A stretch of DNA of 64,000 bases. Origin: Haloquadratum walsbyi J07HQW2. Lineage in GTDB: Archaea > Halobacteriota > Halobacteria > Halobacteriales > Haloferacaceae. Both the position numbers and the translations under genes were made by a program. Numbering within the stretch: the first letter of the stretch is position 1; each line of letters starts with the position of its first letter. Positions 47,540-54,604 of this stretch are shown here, in pieces. The notes beneath the pieces are model-generated. The model ran no database searches, was not told the DNA's origin, and worked only from the letters and a program-made list of their open reading frames with translations. The stretch covers positions 1,609,487 through 1,673,486 of the forward strand of contig NZ_KE356561.1 in NCBI RefSeq assembly GCF_000415985.1. The letters run 5' to 3'.

Positions 47540-47830
47540 AATTGAAAATCGCGGGGGTGCCTCCCGCTACATTTCAGGTCCTGAGTAAGTCTGTTTTCCG
47601 ATTCGGCCGATGACTCACTCAGACTGTGGCACTATACCACATATTAACTTCGGCGGATACAAATCCCTGACGCCTGCGGCAGTGAGTATCCAAACAGTTG
47701 TACACAATCGGTTATTCACTGAATCACTCCACACTCCATGGTCACGCCCGGGATATTCGGCTTGGGTTAGATAGGTTATGAATTATTCATAAATGCGCGA
47801 GCATATGTGGTTACAGACAGAGAAAGAATC

Positions 47831-49309
47831 ATGTCGCTACTCGTGTTCGATGGTCAGATGGGTGCAAGTGGGGATATGATCCTTGCAGCGCTTATTTCAG
47901 CAGGCGCTTCACCAGATGTACTTAGCCCTATCGAAGATGCTCTTGGAATACGATATGTCATTGATACTGAGACAAAAGGTGGTATCGCTGCGACACGGGT
48001 TCGCATTGTAGTTGACTCTGAGACTACACATACTCACTCTGAGAATCAATCAATTGGACACAAAAGAGACCAGGGGCAAGCACACACGCACGATGAGTCA
48101 TGGACTAATGAGCAACATACACACAACACAACAGAAAGTGACGATCATACACATAGTTATGATGGAGATGATACTAAGAGTCATAACCATGGTCACGATC
48201 ATGACGAGTCAGACGAAATAGAGGGTCATGGTCCAACGCGTTCTTACAAAGAAGTAATTGAGATTGTTGAGGGGATGGGACTTGATGCAGATGTTGAATC
48301 AACAGCAAGGAAAATTTTTAATCAGCTTGGTACCGCTGAAGCAGCAGTGCATGGAACATCGCTCTCATCGACACAGTTTCACGAAGTTGGCGCAGACGAT
48401 GCGATTGCTGATATCGTGGGAGCAGTACTTTTGCTCACAGACCTGGATATTGATCAGGTGTATGTGACACCGGTATCAACTGGTAGTGGAGAGATAACGA
48501 TGTCACACGGCTCATTTTCGGTTCCACCACCCGCAGTCGTCGAGATTGCTGGAGAAGCAACATGGTCGCTTCGTGGTGGTCCAGTTGAAGCTGAACTCCT
48601 CACGCCAACAGGCGCTGCGATATTAGCACACATTGCTGAGGGTGTGCGAACACTTCCAGCGCTTGATGTAACAACGACTAGCTATGGTGCTGGTGGATAC
48701 GACTTTGAGGAGTACCCAAATGTTCTTCGCGCTATTGTTGGAAGATCACCAACATCGACAGTGAGTGATGTCAGCATAGATGCGAGTAGTGTAGATGAAT
48801 CACAATCTGTCTCAGAGACAGATGAGTTTACATTTGATCGTGAATCGATTGTTGTATTAGAGACAAATCTTGACGATGCTACCCCTGAGGTACTTGGTAG
48901 TCTTCAGAAGACATTGACAGATGTTGGTGCACTCGATGTAACAATTGTTCCAACAGCAATGAAGAAATCACGACCTGGACATCTGATCAAAGTTATTGTG
49001 AAGCCAGATGATGCGTCGGGTGTTGCTCAGCGACTTGCAGCTGAGACTGGTACATTAGGTATTCGCGAGCATCCTGCCCGGCATCGCTGGCGCGCTGATC
49101 GGAAACTTCAGACCATTACGCTGACAGTTGATGACAATGAGTACGAAATTACGGTCAAAATCGCAAGTGATGGTGACGGGATAGTGTATGATTACAGTGC
49201 AGAGTATGATGATGCACTCGCAGTCGCAACAACGACCGGTCGTCCTGTGCGTGAGATACGTCGTCAGGCAGAGGCAGCCGCCAGATCAATAGTGAGTTCA
49301 GATTCATGA
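47831..49309 (+). CDS. larC: LarC-like nickel-insertion protein with His-rich loop
   Basis: A 492-residue member of the LarC/DUF111 family, which adds nickel to the pincer cofactor of lactate racemase. FDGQMGASGDM is at residues 6-16; the C-terminal part has TNLDDATPEVLGSL. Between residues 67 and 133 lies a loop with 14 histidines among Asp, Glu and Thr, a likely metal store. The start is the ATG of MSLLVFDG. LarB, LarE and LarA are not adjacent. Larger spacing (290 bp) separates it from divergent cdc48. Confidence 0.93.
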   Translation: MSLLVFDGQMGASGDMILAALISAGASPDVLSPIEDALGIRYVIDTETKGGIAATRVRIVVDSETTHTHSENQSIGHKRDQGQAHTHDESWTNEQHTHNTTESDDHTHSYDGDDTKSHNHGHDHDESDEIEGHGPTRSYKEVIEIVEGMGLDADVESTARKIFNQLGTAEAAVHGTSLSSTQFHEVGADDAIADIVGAVLLLTDLDIDQVYVTPVSTGSGEITMSHGSFSVPPPAVVEIAGEATWSLRGGPVEAELLTPTGAAILAHIAEGVRTLPALDVTTTSYGAGGYDFEEYPNVLRAIVGRSPTSTVSDVSIDASSVDESQSVSETDEFTFDRESIVVLETNLDDATPEVLGSLQKTLTDVGALDVTIVPTAMKKSRPGHLIKVIVKPDDASGVAQRLAAETGTLGIREHPARHRWRADRKLQTITLTVDDNEYEITVKIASDGDGIVYDYSAEYDDALAVATTTGRPVREIRRQAEAAARSIVSSDS

Positions 49310-49352: not shown

Positions 49353-50096
49353 TTACTCGTCGCCACGATGAACTGAAAGCGCTTCTCCAAGTGTGAGCTC
49401 TCCAACGGCAACACGACGGGCGAGCTCAGCATCAATAGTTCGATTCTCAGGAGCCATCTGACGTGAACGGTCTTTTATACGCTGGATTTCACCGGCTGTT
49501 GGTTCAAGTGTTCGCGTTTCCGTAATTTCACCGCTTCGCCGGGCAATATTGATTGCTGCAAGTACATCGCCCATTCCACGTGCGCCTGCCCCAAGATACG
49601 GTGTCGTTCCTGCTTCATCAACAATCTCAACGACAACATCTTCGAGGTCATTGACCAATTGCGCACCTTGGAGCCGGGCGCCGTCACCAATCCGGACAAT
49701 TGGGTCAGGATCATCGATGTCTGTCAGTTCAGATTTGATCGTTTCAACAGCCTCTGATAGCGGGACTTGGAATGCACTAATCACTTCATCACCGACGAGA
49801 ATAGCAATGCCAGGATTCGAGCCAGGGTCAACACCTACAATCGTTCGCCCATCATCACCACCGCGAAGTATTGAGACTGCTGATTCAACTGCACGACGTG
49901 CTTCTGACCCAGCGACAACAACACTTTCAGCGTCAGGAGGAAGCGAGACTGTATCGGCTGGTGTCCGAATAATGACTTGTGTGCCCGGAGGAGGGTCTGT
50001 CCCTGATTCAATTGTGGTGAATCGCACATCTCTGTCCCGCAGCTCGCCGACGACATCGTGATACAACTCAAAGTCGTCGGTGGCGACGACAATCAC
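49353..50096 (-). CDS. YqgF/RuvC-like RNase H-fold protein
   Basis: A 247-residue protein. The N-terminal 80 residues form a small alpha/beta region. From residue 87 there is a RuvC/YqgF-type fold: VGVDPGSNPG with Asp90, the strand-4 motif EIVDEAGTT with Glu161, and GMGDVLAAINIARRSG with Asp177. The acidic residues line up with the catalytic set of RNase H-like nucleases. A charged C-terminal helical tail follows. It may process recombination or RNA structures. It is divergent from radB, 264 bp away. Family name is not certain. Confidence 0.75.
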   Translation of the reverse strand: MIVVATDDFELYHDVVGELRDRDVRFTTIESGTDPPPGTQVIIRTPADTVSLPPDAESVVVAGSEARRAVESAVSILRGGDDGRTIVGVDPGSNPGIAILVGDEVISAFQVPLSEAVETIKSELTDIDDPDPIVRIGDGARLQGAQLVNDLEDVVVEIVDEAGTTPYLGAGARGMGDVLAAINIARRSGEITETRTLEPTAGEIQRIKDRSRQMAPENRTIDAELARRVAVGELTLGEALSVHRGDE

Positions 50097-50360: not shown

Positions 50361-51140
50361 GTGTCACGACCACTCTCGACAGGGTGTCAATCGCTTGATT
50401 CCCTTCTCGGTGGAGGATTTGAGCGCGGAACTGTCACGCAAGTTTATGGACCTCCTGCCGCAGGGAAAACAAACATTATGCTTTCAGCGGCTCTTCATAC
50501 TGCAGCAGCTGATAGCATGGCTATTTATGTTGATACTGAGGGAATCTCATCGGATCGTTTTCGACAGATTGCAAACGGCGTTACTGATGAGCTATCCTCA
50601 GCGGATCGTGAATCCCTCACCTCACAGGTTATGATATCTGACGCCCATGATTTCGAGGCACAAGCAGTCGCAGTTCGTGACACTGCAGAATTCGCTCACC
50701 GCGCTGATATCATTATTCTTGATAGTGCAACCGGGTTTTATCGACTTCAACGAACGCTCGGAGGGACTCTTGAGAATAATGTCGAGTCGAGGCAATCCTC
50801 GGCGGGAAGTACAGAGAACACAGAACGCACTGAGAATGCAGATGATGGTGATACACTTCGCCGACTTACGACCCAGATCACACATCTTCTCTCACTTGCT
50901 CGAAAGCATGACCTTGCTGTCGTCATTACGAATCAGGTCTTTACCGATCCTGATACTGACCGGGTTCGACCACTCGGCGGGTATACCTTAGAACATTGGA
51001 CAGGGACGGTCCTTAGACTTGAACGGTTTCGCGGTGGTAAACGACGGGCGACTCTCGAGAAACACCGATCGAAGCCAACCGGTGAATCTGAAACGTTCGT
51101 CATCACTGACAGTGGTGTTGCAGATAACAAGATTGAATAA
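50361..51140 (+). CDS. radB: RadB recombinase paralogue
   Basis: RecA-fold protein of 259 residues. Walker A is GPPAAGKT (about residues 30-37), Walker B is IIILDSATGF, and VVITNQVF and LGGYTLEHW follow. It lacks the N-terminal helix-hairpin-helix domain of RadA. RadB assists RadA loading during homologous recombination. The start is a GTG, as no ATG precedes the first motif. A variable acidic stretch lies near residues 140-165. It faces the YqgF/RuvC-like gene. Confidence 0.95.
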   Translation: MSRPLSTGCQSLDSLLGGGFERGTVTQVYGPPAAGKTNIMLSAALHTAAADSMAIYVDTEGISSDRFRQIANGVTDELSSADRESLTSQVMISDAHDFEAQAVAVRDTAEFAHRADIIILDSATGFYRLQRTLGGTLENNVESRQSSAGSTENTERTENADDGDTLRRLTTQITHLLSLARKHDLAVVITNQVFTDPDTDRVRPLGGYTLEHWTGTVLRLERFRGGKRRATLEKHRSKPTGESETFVITDSGVADNKIE

Positions 51141-51585: not shown

Positions 51586-51589
51586 TTAC
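51560..51589. repeat. Tandem hexamer GACTCA/GACTTA
   Basis: Two copies of GACTCA and two of GACTTA are head to tail, with a degenerate fifth copy. The array abuts, and the fifth unit overlaps, the stop codon of the CBS-HPF gene. It is a short microsatellite. Because the unit is six bases, slippage would not shift a frame, and it lies mostly in the 3' untranslated part. Confidence 0.6.
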
Positions 51590-52734
51590 AGTTCACCCAA
51601 CTTCCGAATCAATTGCCCGCGATATCGTTCATCAGCATTGACACCTTTCATTTCGAGCACATTCCGTTCAAGCTTATCAAGTGCAACATGAAATGCATTT
51701 TCAGCACCATATCCTTCGCCACTTCCCGCGACTTGTCCGAGACTCGTTCGAAGTCGAATCTGACACTGCATGAGCGGTGTCCCCCGAAGTTTCTCTTTAT
51801 GTTCATGAAGTCGGACATGCGCATGAAGGACCTGCATCTGCTGATATTTGTCCACAACATCAGTAATCGATTCAACGATCTCTGTTCGAGTGAGCGTTTC
51901 AAGAAGTCCGATATTTGTAATTTGAACATCCATCGACTCCTCTTCGGTAAATGTGAGTGCTCTGAGCACGTCTGTCTTCGTGAGAACTCCCTTGACTGTT
52001 GTATCACCGGTAGCAGGCGTCACCACCAGTCCCGAGATATCATTATCAAACATGCGCTCAACAGCATCACTTACTGGTTCACCGGGTTGGGCAGTAATAA
52101 CTGGTGCAGACATTAGATCATAAACAGGGAGATCAAGCATACGGTCAATGTCACCGCTGCGGTCCCCACGACCTTGTCGGTCATCGTCGCGAACGACAAA
52201 GTCGATAATGTCGTGTGTGGTAAGAATGCCGGTAAGTGAGCTTAATTCGTCCTGTTCGACCACTGGAACACGGGAAATGCTATGTTCACGGAGTTTATTT
52301 ATTGCTTCTCCGAGAGGTGATTGCTCAGCGACATCTACAACATCATCAGTGAAGATATCTTCAACAGAAATTGCATCAAGATTTTCAAGAACAGCTTCCA
52401 AGATATTCTCGCCTGTGACAATACCATAGAGTTGCTGACCCTCAAATACAGGGGCGACATTGACATCGCCCTCAACCAACATCCGAGCGGCTTCGCGGAC
52501 ATCCTCATCCCGGTCTAGTTTTGGTGCTGATTTCGTAACAACAGCCACTTTTGTGTCATTATCCATCCGCGATCGGACTAATTGTTTTTCACCGACAACA
52601 CCGGTGTACTCTCCCTGTTCAGTGATGATTATTCCATTTGGTCGTTCACGGTCAAAGATAGACCGAATTTTGCCTAACCGCTTGTCAGCATGAGCCTCAA
52701 CGTAATCAGGAGTGGCAATAGTAGTGATATCCAT
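51586..52734 (-). CDS. CBS-domain protein with C-terminal HPF-like domain
   Basis: A 382-residue protein. Residues 1-268 hold four CBS motifs, the first of which is degenerate; the last ends VKGVLTKTDVLRAL. Residues 270-370 look like a ribosome hibernation factor (HPF/RaiA) fold: MDVQITNIGLLETLTRTEI, then VLHAHVRLHEHKEKL, then GAENAFHVALDKLERNV. CBS domains usually bind adenine nucleotides, so this may tie ribosome inactivation to energy state. This is an inference from layout. It converges on radB. Confidence 0.8.
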   Translation of the reverse strand: MDITTIATPDYVEAHADKRLGKIRSIFDRERPNGIIITEQGEYTGVVGEKQLVRSRMDNDTKVAVVTKSAPKLDRDEDVREAARMLVEGDVNVAPVFEGQQLYGIVTGENILEAVLENLDAISVEDIFTDDVVDVAEQSPLGEAINKLREHSISRVPVVEQDELSSLTGILTTHDIIDFVVRDDDRQGRGDRSGDIDRMLDLPVYDLMSAPVITAQPGEPVSDAVERMFDNDISGLVVTPATGDTTVKGVLTKTDVLRALTFTEEESMDVQITNIGLLETLTRTEIVESITDVVDKYQQMQVLHAHVRLHEHKEKLRGTPLMQCQIRLRTSLGQVAGSGEGYGAENAFHVALDKLERNVLEMKGVNADERYRGQLIRKLGEL

Positions 52735-52824: not shown

Positions 52825-53556
52825 TTATGATAAATCATTACTATGAGTATTACCAAACTGCTCAGCAGGAAGACGTAGTTCTTTCAACCCAGGGAGCTGT
52901 TCGATGTTAAATACAACCTGTAGATCATTACTCACGGGTTGACCGATACAAGATAGTCGGATACCTCGATTAACCATCCCATCGGTGAGGATGGTGCTGA
53001 CACTCATCTCAACAACTCCATCAATGACAGCAATCGCACAATTCGCACATGCACCGCCTCGACAGGCATATGGCCATGAGAATCCATAGCGCTCAGCGGC
53101 TTCAAGTAATGATTCACGAGGTTCAACAACAAAGATTCCGTGAGTATCGATATCAAGATCAACTGCATCGGCTTTTGCAAAGAGGTCCGGATCCGTGAGT
53201 TTCCATCCATAGTCAGCGAGAATTTCATAATCAAGATACTCAACGGTTGGTCCGAGTGTATCGGTCTCATCCGCCTCATCAACGGAACTGGAACTCGATG
53301 CTGACGTTGATGTCGGCTCTGTATCACCACTCTGTGTAGTTGTGGTATAGTCTGCTTCGGTAGCTATATTAAACTCACTCGCGGGAGCCCCAGAGTCAAT
53401 ATGCTCATAAGCGCGACGGACGCGTTTGAATTCTGTAAGCGATCCTCCGTGGTCAGGATGTACCTCTTTTATGCGCGTGCGATATGCCTGAAGAATCGTC
53501 TCTTCATCAGCGCTTGGGGATATGCCAAGTATATCGTAGACCGACGACACAACCAT
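52825..53556 (-). CDS. J-domain fused to halophilic [2Fe-2S] ferredoxin
   Basis: A 243-residue protein. An N-terminal J-domain (residues 4-60) carries the HPD motif at 33-35. A Ser/Thr/Asp linker follows. The C-terminal part is a plant-type ferredoxin with the haloarchaeal insertion (YLDYEILADYGWKLTDPDLF), cluster cysteines in CRGGACANC and a fourth in RLSCIG. The start is the ATG of MVVSSVYDILG. It may deliver electrons or recruit DnaK to iron-sulfur work; this is inferred. Confidence 0.85.
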   Translation of the reverse strand: MVVSSVYDILGISPSADEETILQAYRTRIKEVHPDHGGSLTEFKRVRRAYEHIDSGAPASEFNIATEADYTTTTQSGDTEPTSTSASSSSSVDEADETDTLGPTVEYLDYEILADYGWKLTDPDLFAKADAVDLDIDTHGIFVVEPRESLLEAAERYGFSWPYACRGGACANCAIAVIDGVVEMSVSTILTDGMVNRGIRLSCIGQPVSNDLQVVFNIEQLPGLKELRLPAEQFGNTHSNDLS

Positions 53557-54169
53557 TGCTCTGTGGTCAGGCTGATTAGTCTCTTCCTTCTGATTGCGCT
53601 TTCCCTCATAGACTAACGCTTTTGTCAAGAAATCAGCCTGTTTGATGGGTATAGTGAGATCGCTTATTCAGGCGATTGGTGAGTGTCCGCACGACCGTGA
53701 GACCAATACCAACTTGCAATTAAGCGAAATCGACATTCAATGGTATATACTATATATACAGAAGTACGCTCAGCTCCTTGGATGGATAGAATTAGCATTC
53801 GTAAAAATTGTCTAAATTTGACATTTTCTCTATCCCGAAGGGTGGGGTAGTTCACCCTTGCAATTCCAATAACCACATGATGACTCGTTTGTTATGACTA
53901 GGAGTAATGATTATACGCTATCTGAGAGTATTGTATTCTCTCTAAGTTACCCAGATAAACTGAAAGTTACCCGACAGGTGTCACTGTCAAACCTAAAGAT
54001 GGATTTATTACTAACAAGGGGGTACAGACGCTTTTGAACCGCTTGCTAAGACAGTTGATCGTCTTTACCATATCACGGTTAGAGCGTAATAATATATGTA
54101 TTAAAAACTATTGTCGGTAATATAGAGTACATATAAGAATTTAATCTGATGGTCAGTCTCTGTATGATT
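53557..54169. other. Long intergenic region before the LMW phosphatase
   Basis: A 613-bp stretch without a credible ORF. It contains a near-palindromic GTATATACTATATATAC around 53742-53760, a 7-bp hairpin at 53838-53859, and an AT-rich promoter area at 54115-54140. No RNA gene was recognised. Confidence 0.55.
53838..53859. repeat. Hairpin AAGGGTG/CACCCTT
   Basis: A perfect seven-pair stem with an eight-base loop lies in the middle of the long spacer. No T-tract follows on either strand. It may belong to an untranslated RNA or be a binding site. Confidence 0.45.
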
Positions 54170-54604
54170 ATGTCAGAGGGTTCGCCAACAAAGCTTGGGT
54201 TTATTTGTGTTCAAAACGCTGGGCGTAATCAGATGTCAGCGGCATTCGCTGAGCGCGAGCGGGACCGTCGAGGAGTTAATGATGGTATTGATATCATCAC
54301 GGGAGGAACCGACCCAGCCGATGATGTACATGAAGAGGTTGTGAAAGTAATGAATGAGATTAACATCGATATCTCCGGTCAAACGCCACGAAAGGTCTCA
54401 ACAGAAGAACTTGAATCGTGTGATATTGTTGCAACAATGGGTTGTTCGACACTGAAGATTGATGCTGAGGAGATTGATATCCGTGATTGGGCACTTGACG
54501 ACCCGGATAATAAAGATCTTGAGCAAGTGCGCGTAATCCGAGATGAGATTGAAGGGCGAGTCGTAGCCCTCTTTGACCACGTGGGCACTCAGACAACAGT
54601 ATAG
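54170..54604 (+). CDS. Low-molecular-weight phosphatase/arsenate reductase family
   Basis: A 144-residue protein of the LMW tyrosine phosphatase fold. The active-site P-loop CVQNAGR is at residues 13-19, and the general-acid Asp region WALDDPDNKD is near 105. Two more Cys (in SCDIVATMGC) could give the disulfide relay of arsenate reductases, but their spacing is one residue longer than in the classic enzyme. The start MSEGSPTK is preferred to one seven codons earlier. The gene is single. Confidence 0.83.
   Translation: MSEGSPTKLGFICVQNAGRNQMSAAFAERERDRRGVNDGIDIITGGTDPADDVHEEVVKVMNEINIDISGQTPRKVSTEELESCDIVATMGCSTLKIDAEEIDIRDWALDDPDNKDLEQVRVIRDEIEGRVVALFDHVGTQTTV

Follow-up and report, generated by a model that had tools for sequence, protein, structure and literature searches.

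The window analyzed here, a 64,000-nucleotide stretch of the Haloquadratum walsbyi J07HQW2 genome, carries at 51586..52734 a single intact open reading frame on the minus strand (ATG at 52734, TAA at 51586-51588, stop codon counted) that encodes a protein of 382 residues. A preliminary description had placed an open reading frame at this position, and we confirm its extent while adding the strand, which had been left unstated. The frame is not due to chance, because an intact full-length homologue is present in 116 of 116 haloarchaeal genomes. From its N-terminus, the product of this gene, which we call hibA, consists of a module of four CBS domains (residues 1–261; 51952..52734, minus strand), with a loop between CBS3 and CBS4 (the PTC loop, residues 184–201; 52132..52185, minus strand), followed by a C-terminal HPF/RaiA-type domain (51589..51951, minus strand). 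Converging on hibA from the plus strand is radB (50361..51140), which encodes the recombinase paralogue RadB (NF006861, E=5.7e-123).

Several other genes surround this pair. A minus-strand gene at 52825-53628, 90 bp upstream of hibA, encodes a fusion of a DnaJ domain with a haloarchaeal 2Fe-2S ferredoxin, and this gene is found near hibA in Haloquadratum and Halobellus loci only. A low-molecular-weight phosphatase or arsenate-reductase-like protein (54149-54604, plus strand) is likewise close to hibA in Haloquadratum. Adjoining radB, the minus-strand gene at 49353-50096 encodes a 247-residue protein that opens with an RNase H/RuvC-like motif, VGVDPGSNPGIAIL, and is kept beside radB in most haloarchaeal loci; it has no Pfam or NCBIfam match above threshold (a weak match to DUF460 has E=0.019) and is possibly a nuclease linked to recombination. 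On the plus strand, 47807-49309 encodes a LarC-type nickel insertion protein containing a His-rich insert; in other haloarchaea this gene often lies two genes away from radB. RadB itself, here and in its nearest relative, contains about 25 extra residues around NVESRQSSAGSTENTERTENADDGD that split the family match in two and are missing in nearly all other haloarchaea sampled.

Pfam PF00571 matches the window protein in four stretches (E=5e-34), bearing out the four CBS motifs described previously, and the full-length structural model resembles four-CBS proteins including SriA/SriB of M. acetivorans (from the Methanosarcina ribosome), Dri, MJ1225 and AMPK gamma. The T/SxxD sequence of CBS domains is a ribose-binding motif whose acidic residue is typical of adenylate-binding CBS pairs. 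We observed this acidic residue only in the T/SxxD-type motifs of CBS3 and CBS4, as Asp175 (GILTTHD; 52210..52212, minus strand) and Asp255 (GVLTKTD; 51970..51972, minus strand), both of which are kept across all clades compared. At the same position CBS1 and CBS2 read GVVGEKQ and GIVTGEN, and the acidic motif residue is absent.

The C-terminal domain had been proposed to resemble hibernation promoting factor, and by sequence the likeness is weak: PF02482 (Ribosomal_S30AE) aligns with residues 287–363 at E=8e-4 and 20.5 bits, under the curated cut-off of 23.7, and matches at E<=0.01 in 15 of 24 relatives, with a best value of 1e-4. A profile built from 24 such domains, drawn from haloarchaea, P. 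abyssi, and genomes that we label Archaeoglobaceae-like and Methanocella-like (both guessed group names), was searched against all PDB sequences. Two HibA-type proteins came out on top (E<1e-35), and 12 of the 13 matches that followed were bacterial HPF/RaiA proteins, starting at E=0.002; the one unrelated match had an E value of 0.44. The AlphaFold model of residues 262–382 (pLDDT 79) gave a consistent picture when compared with the PDB by Foldseek, the first 22 matches being without exception HPF/YfiA/pY proteins (E 3.9e-5 to 8.6e-4), many of them ribosome-bound. The profile and the fold together back the proposed HPF-like domain and rule out an artefact or chance similarity. In the profile alignment, residues at RGTPL and EGYG are missing from S. 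aureus HPF, although the correspondence of these positions to the two archaeal-specific insertions described for HibA is uncertain. A scan of the same genome with PF02482 revealed no further HPF-domain protein above threshold, the hibA product itself also falling below it.

A phmmer search of the PDB identified two proteins related over the full length, namely 9L96_a (E=7e-69) and 9SR9_H (E=1.8e-41), the latter aligned over residues 5–379 of 382. The 9SR9 protein is HibA of Pyrococcus abyssi (Pab0961), published in April 2026 in Nature Communications, in a report that presents HibA as a ribosome hibernation factor family found widely among Archaea (PMC13324472). According to that report, P. 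abyssi HibA combines four CBS domains with a C-terminal HPF/RaiA domain and adopts three conformations on the 70S ribosome; work in Thermococcales by cryo-EM, gene deletion and in vitro translation showed that HibA occupies the mRNA and tRNA sites, inhibits translation and preserves the 70S particle, and hibA deletion in Thermococcus barophilus lowered stationary-phase 70S by ~60% and delayed regrowth (PMC13324472). The other relative comes from a series of structures (9L96, 9L98, 9L9C and 9L9V) that contain a 'CBS domain-containing protein' and also carry haloarchaeal uL2, indicating that this CBS homologue belongs to haloarchaeal ribosome complexes. The uL2 of the genome studied here is matched marginally better by the uL2 of the series than by the uL2 entries of Haloarcula marismortui, and our literature search found no publication describing the series. 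Full-length homology to HibA and the presence of a haloarchaeal relative in ribosome structures thus support the ribosome hibernation role suggested in the preliminary description.

Residues 184–201 of the window protein align without gaps to residues 190–207 of P. abyssi HibA, giving loops of equal length, and the P. abyssi loop is reported to sit in the peptidyl-transferase centre (PMC13324472). The second half of the loop is strongly conserved around a GDRxGDxDRxLDxP core: R192, G194, R198, L200 and D201, together with P203 just beyond the loop, are invariant in 55 non-redundant haloarchaeal core-set sequences. Residues 183–189 are variable, R186 least so.

Among named records the closest come from Haloquadratum walsbyi J07HQW1 (94% identity) and from Halobellus species. 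Identity to the window protein ranges from 59 to 100% among the homologues in the 116 haloarchaeal genomes, with one at 49%, and a wider sample of the phylum contains a homologue at E<=1e-20 in 101 of 246 genomes, namely the haloarchaea and two more families. The viral contigs that we searched held no hibA relative. Extra matches beyond the universal copy occur in 37 of the 116 haloarchaea, and a tree of 111 proteins, built by a quick method with SH-aLRT support only, separates a universal haloarchaeal clade that includes the window protein from a patchy second clade; we term these HibA1 and HibA2. The 9L96 protein is placed within HibA2, in a subclade with paralogues (SH-aLRT 100), while a few long-branch rows (L057, L070) are uncertainly placed and the deep connections to P. 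abyssi are unreliable. HibA1 proteins keep roughly the P. abyssi loop length; the HibA2 loop has ~14–25 additional Gly/Ser-rich residues, and most HibA2 proteins end in a distinct tail (...KRFGWxLEE or ...YGWWLxG). Loci L053-L072 illustrate this type, with the Gly/Ser-rich extension and a Trp-containing tail (e.g. L062:4371-5576), and in L062 the HibA2 copy stands in tandem with the universal one. A search of the Haloquadratum genome for a HibA2 paralogue found none, its two other matches spanning CBS domains only. In the Methanocella-like genomes the gene after hibA encodes a small protein resembling Mrr-type restriction endonucleases (L093:5956-6573 and L094:4629-5072; Mrr_cat E=1.7e-4 and 0.017), and ruvC-ruvA-ruvB lies upstream of hibA in L093 but is absent there in L094.

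The CBS module of P. abyssi HibA binds AMP, ADP and ATP with affinities of 12 uM, 65 uM and 113 uM, respectively, and holds a single nucleotide at the CBS3/CBS4 interface (PMC13324472), a site with which the confinement of D175 and D255 to CBS3 and CBS4 agrees. The same report describes native complexes in which no nucleotide was seen, and states that at saturating AMP or ATP the conformations stay largely the same and ribosome binding is not clearly altered; adenine-nucleotide control is therefore an idea rather than a supported conclusion. The preliminary description had proposed that adenine nucleotides control ribosome inactivation directly. For P. abyssi HibA nucleotide binding holds, in the order AMP>ADP>ATP, but its binding to the ribosome was not changed by nucleotide, and direct control is thus supported in part only. 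Nor is the idea new, as HVO_2384 was described in 2025 as combining CBS domains with a hibernation-factor domain, and any nucleotide role of the window protein would be presumptive.

We interpret the window protein as a Haloquadratum homologue of HibA, a ribosome-capping hibernation factor with probable adenylate tuning at CBS3/CBS4, and assign this whole reading a probability of about 0.92. Homology gives its role in hibernation good support. Others have demonstrated ribosome binding, translation inhibition, 70S preservation and AMP/ADP/ATP binding for the relatives, from which we infer that the protein has the same function in Haloquadratum. In the proposed mechanism, the four-CBS module would swing across the tRNA sites of the 50S subunit and the PTC loop could enter the peptidyl-transferase centre. 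HibA would thereby hold the subunits together as an idle 70S, deny the ribosome to mRNA and tRNA, and may protect its active sites from degradation until regrowth. An adenylate, AMP best, would probably be bound at the CBS3/CBS4 interface and might tune the availability or release of HibA, as opposed to acting as an on-off switch for binding. Several observations count against the hibernation reading: the HPF domain scores below the PF02482 cut-off, the ribosome-bound haloarchaeal structures contain HibA2 whereas the window protein is HibA1, AMP and ATP had no clear influence on HibA binding in the published account (PMC13324472), and earlier studies tie HibA homologues to RadB, RadA and GINS, not to ribosomes (PMC3820547). 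On the main point the preliminary description was right, and the window protein joins a protein family already published.

The nucleotide step of this mechanism has a competitor that leaves the hibernation role intact, namely a CBS module that acts as a passive, tRNA-shaped filler on the 50S subunit and senses no nucleotide in the cell. The nucleotide-free native complexes and the lack of a clear AMP or ATP effect in P. abyssi favor such a filler (PMC13324472), but the P. abyssi module binds AMP at 12 uM and D175 and D255 are conserved in all clades compared, and we regard the filler as a realistic possibility that falls short of an even chance. A more radical departure would make the protein a CBS regulator of a non-ribosomal target, such as a partner of Pat2 or an HhpR-like transcription regulator, and reduce the HPF-like domain to a structural relic. 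HVO_2384 did co-purify with an inactive Pat2 variant (PMC12607858), and HhpR, another CBS protein whose loop occupies the equivalent position, regulates transcription (PMC13324472). However, few parts of the protein are as conserved as the HPF domain (mean column entropy 0.67 bits, versus 1.03 for the CBS module) and homologues have been observed on ribosomes, and we consider this reading as a whole highly improbable.

The hibernation reading may also be incomplete, in that HibA1 could both cap ribosomes and bind RadB/RadA (GINS in Thermococcales), coupling recombination or replication to energy and growth, with adenylate on the CBS module picking the partner. By setting hibA positions against radB positions in 116 haloarchaeal genomes, we found the two genes tail-to-tail within 10 kb in 84, and within 500 bp in 59 of these 84 (median 203 bp). 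Among 40 longer loci, radB is present in 33, while the ferredoxin-DnaJ gene that flanks hibA opposite radB appears in only 7. This linkage is notable because HibA homologues have been reported to bind RadB, RadA and GINS: Pab0961 co-purified with RadB and GINS/GAN, and Hvo_2384 with RadA and RadB (PMC3820547, which gives the Hvo_2384 result as a personal communication). A sequestering partner is raised in the HibA report by its own authors (PMC13324472), and the available text of that report contained no mention of the gene pair. Against a dual role, tail-to-tail genes lack co-transcription, and the pull-downs may contain ribosomes or other contaminants. The pair is also broken in one haloarchaeal family (f3), where the tail-to-tail arrangement within 10 kb occurs in 0 of 23 genomes; this family accounts for 13 of another 14 genomes in which hibA and radB are near each other in other orientation. 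Outside Halobacteria, radB was far from hibA in all 14 genomes checked. On balance we consider a dual role unlikely. The radB gene is a conserved neighbour and no part of the hibernation factor itself, and the pair may be an old gene order merely retained; that it marks a second function seems to us about as doubtful as the dual role. The chance is slimmer for a specific version in which HibA1 and RadB let one CBS protein tie homologous recombination to ribosome dormancy through adenylate state, with HibA2, where present, taking part of the pure ribosome role.

These results bring the haloarchaea, which are genetically tractable, into the HibA field, with HibA1 in every sampled genome and, in about a third of those sampled, a second, loop-extended type too; the deposited haloarchaeal ribosome structures with such a protein show HibA2. 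The persistent radB neighbour makes it worthwhile to test the reported, and puzzling, contacts of HibA homologues with the recombination and replication machinery. In the literature, as far as its text was available, we found no account of hibA in all 116 haloarchaea, of 9L96 as a member of a patchy second clade with a longer loop, or of the radB linkage. What deserves specialist attention is the division into HibA1 and HibA2 together with the radB pair.

Among known systems, bacterial HPF/RaiA/YfiA proteins (PF02482) share fold and profile likeness with the C-terminal domain, although the window protein falls below the Pfam cut-off, has additional residues around RGTPL and EGYG and, unlike the matched bacterial proteins, carries a fused CBS module. 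The Dri/Sri proteins (9E6Q, 9ZNF, 9ZNI) place four-CBS modules on archaeal ribosomes and match the full-length model but lack an HPF domain; a Dri-type or stand-alone CBS-module factor (two fused CBS modules, or one without HPF) is excluded here by the combination of one CBS module with an HPF domain. HVO_2384 of Haloferax volcanii, a tandem-CBS protein with a C-terminal hibernation-factor domain (mBio 2025, PMC12607858) that was named as a Pab0961 homologue in 2013 (PMC3820547), is of the same kind by description and comes from another species. The 9L96 protein has the layout and domain order of the window protein at E=7e-69, yet belongs to the second haloarchaeal clade with its Gly/Ser-rich loop extension and different C-terminal tail. 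P. abyssi HibA shares the same layout and an equal PTC loop at the same place but is distant in sequence: its CBS module contains 36 K+R against 45 D+E, compared with 27 against 51 in the more acidic module of the window protein, whose C-terminal domain is two residues shorter near residue 301.
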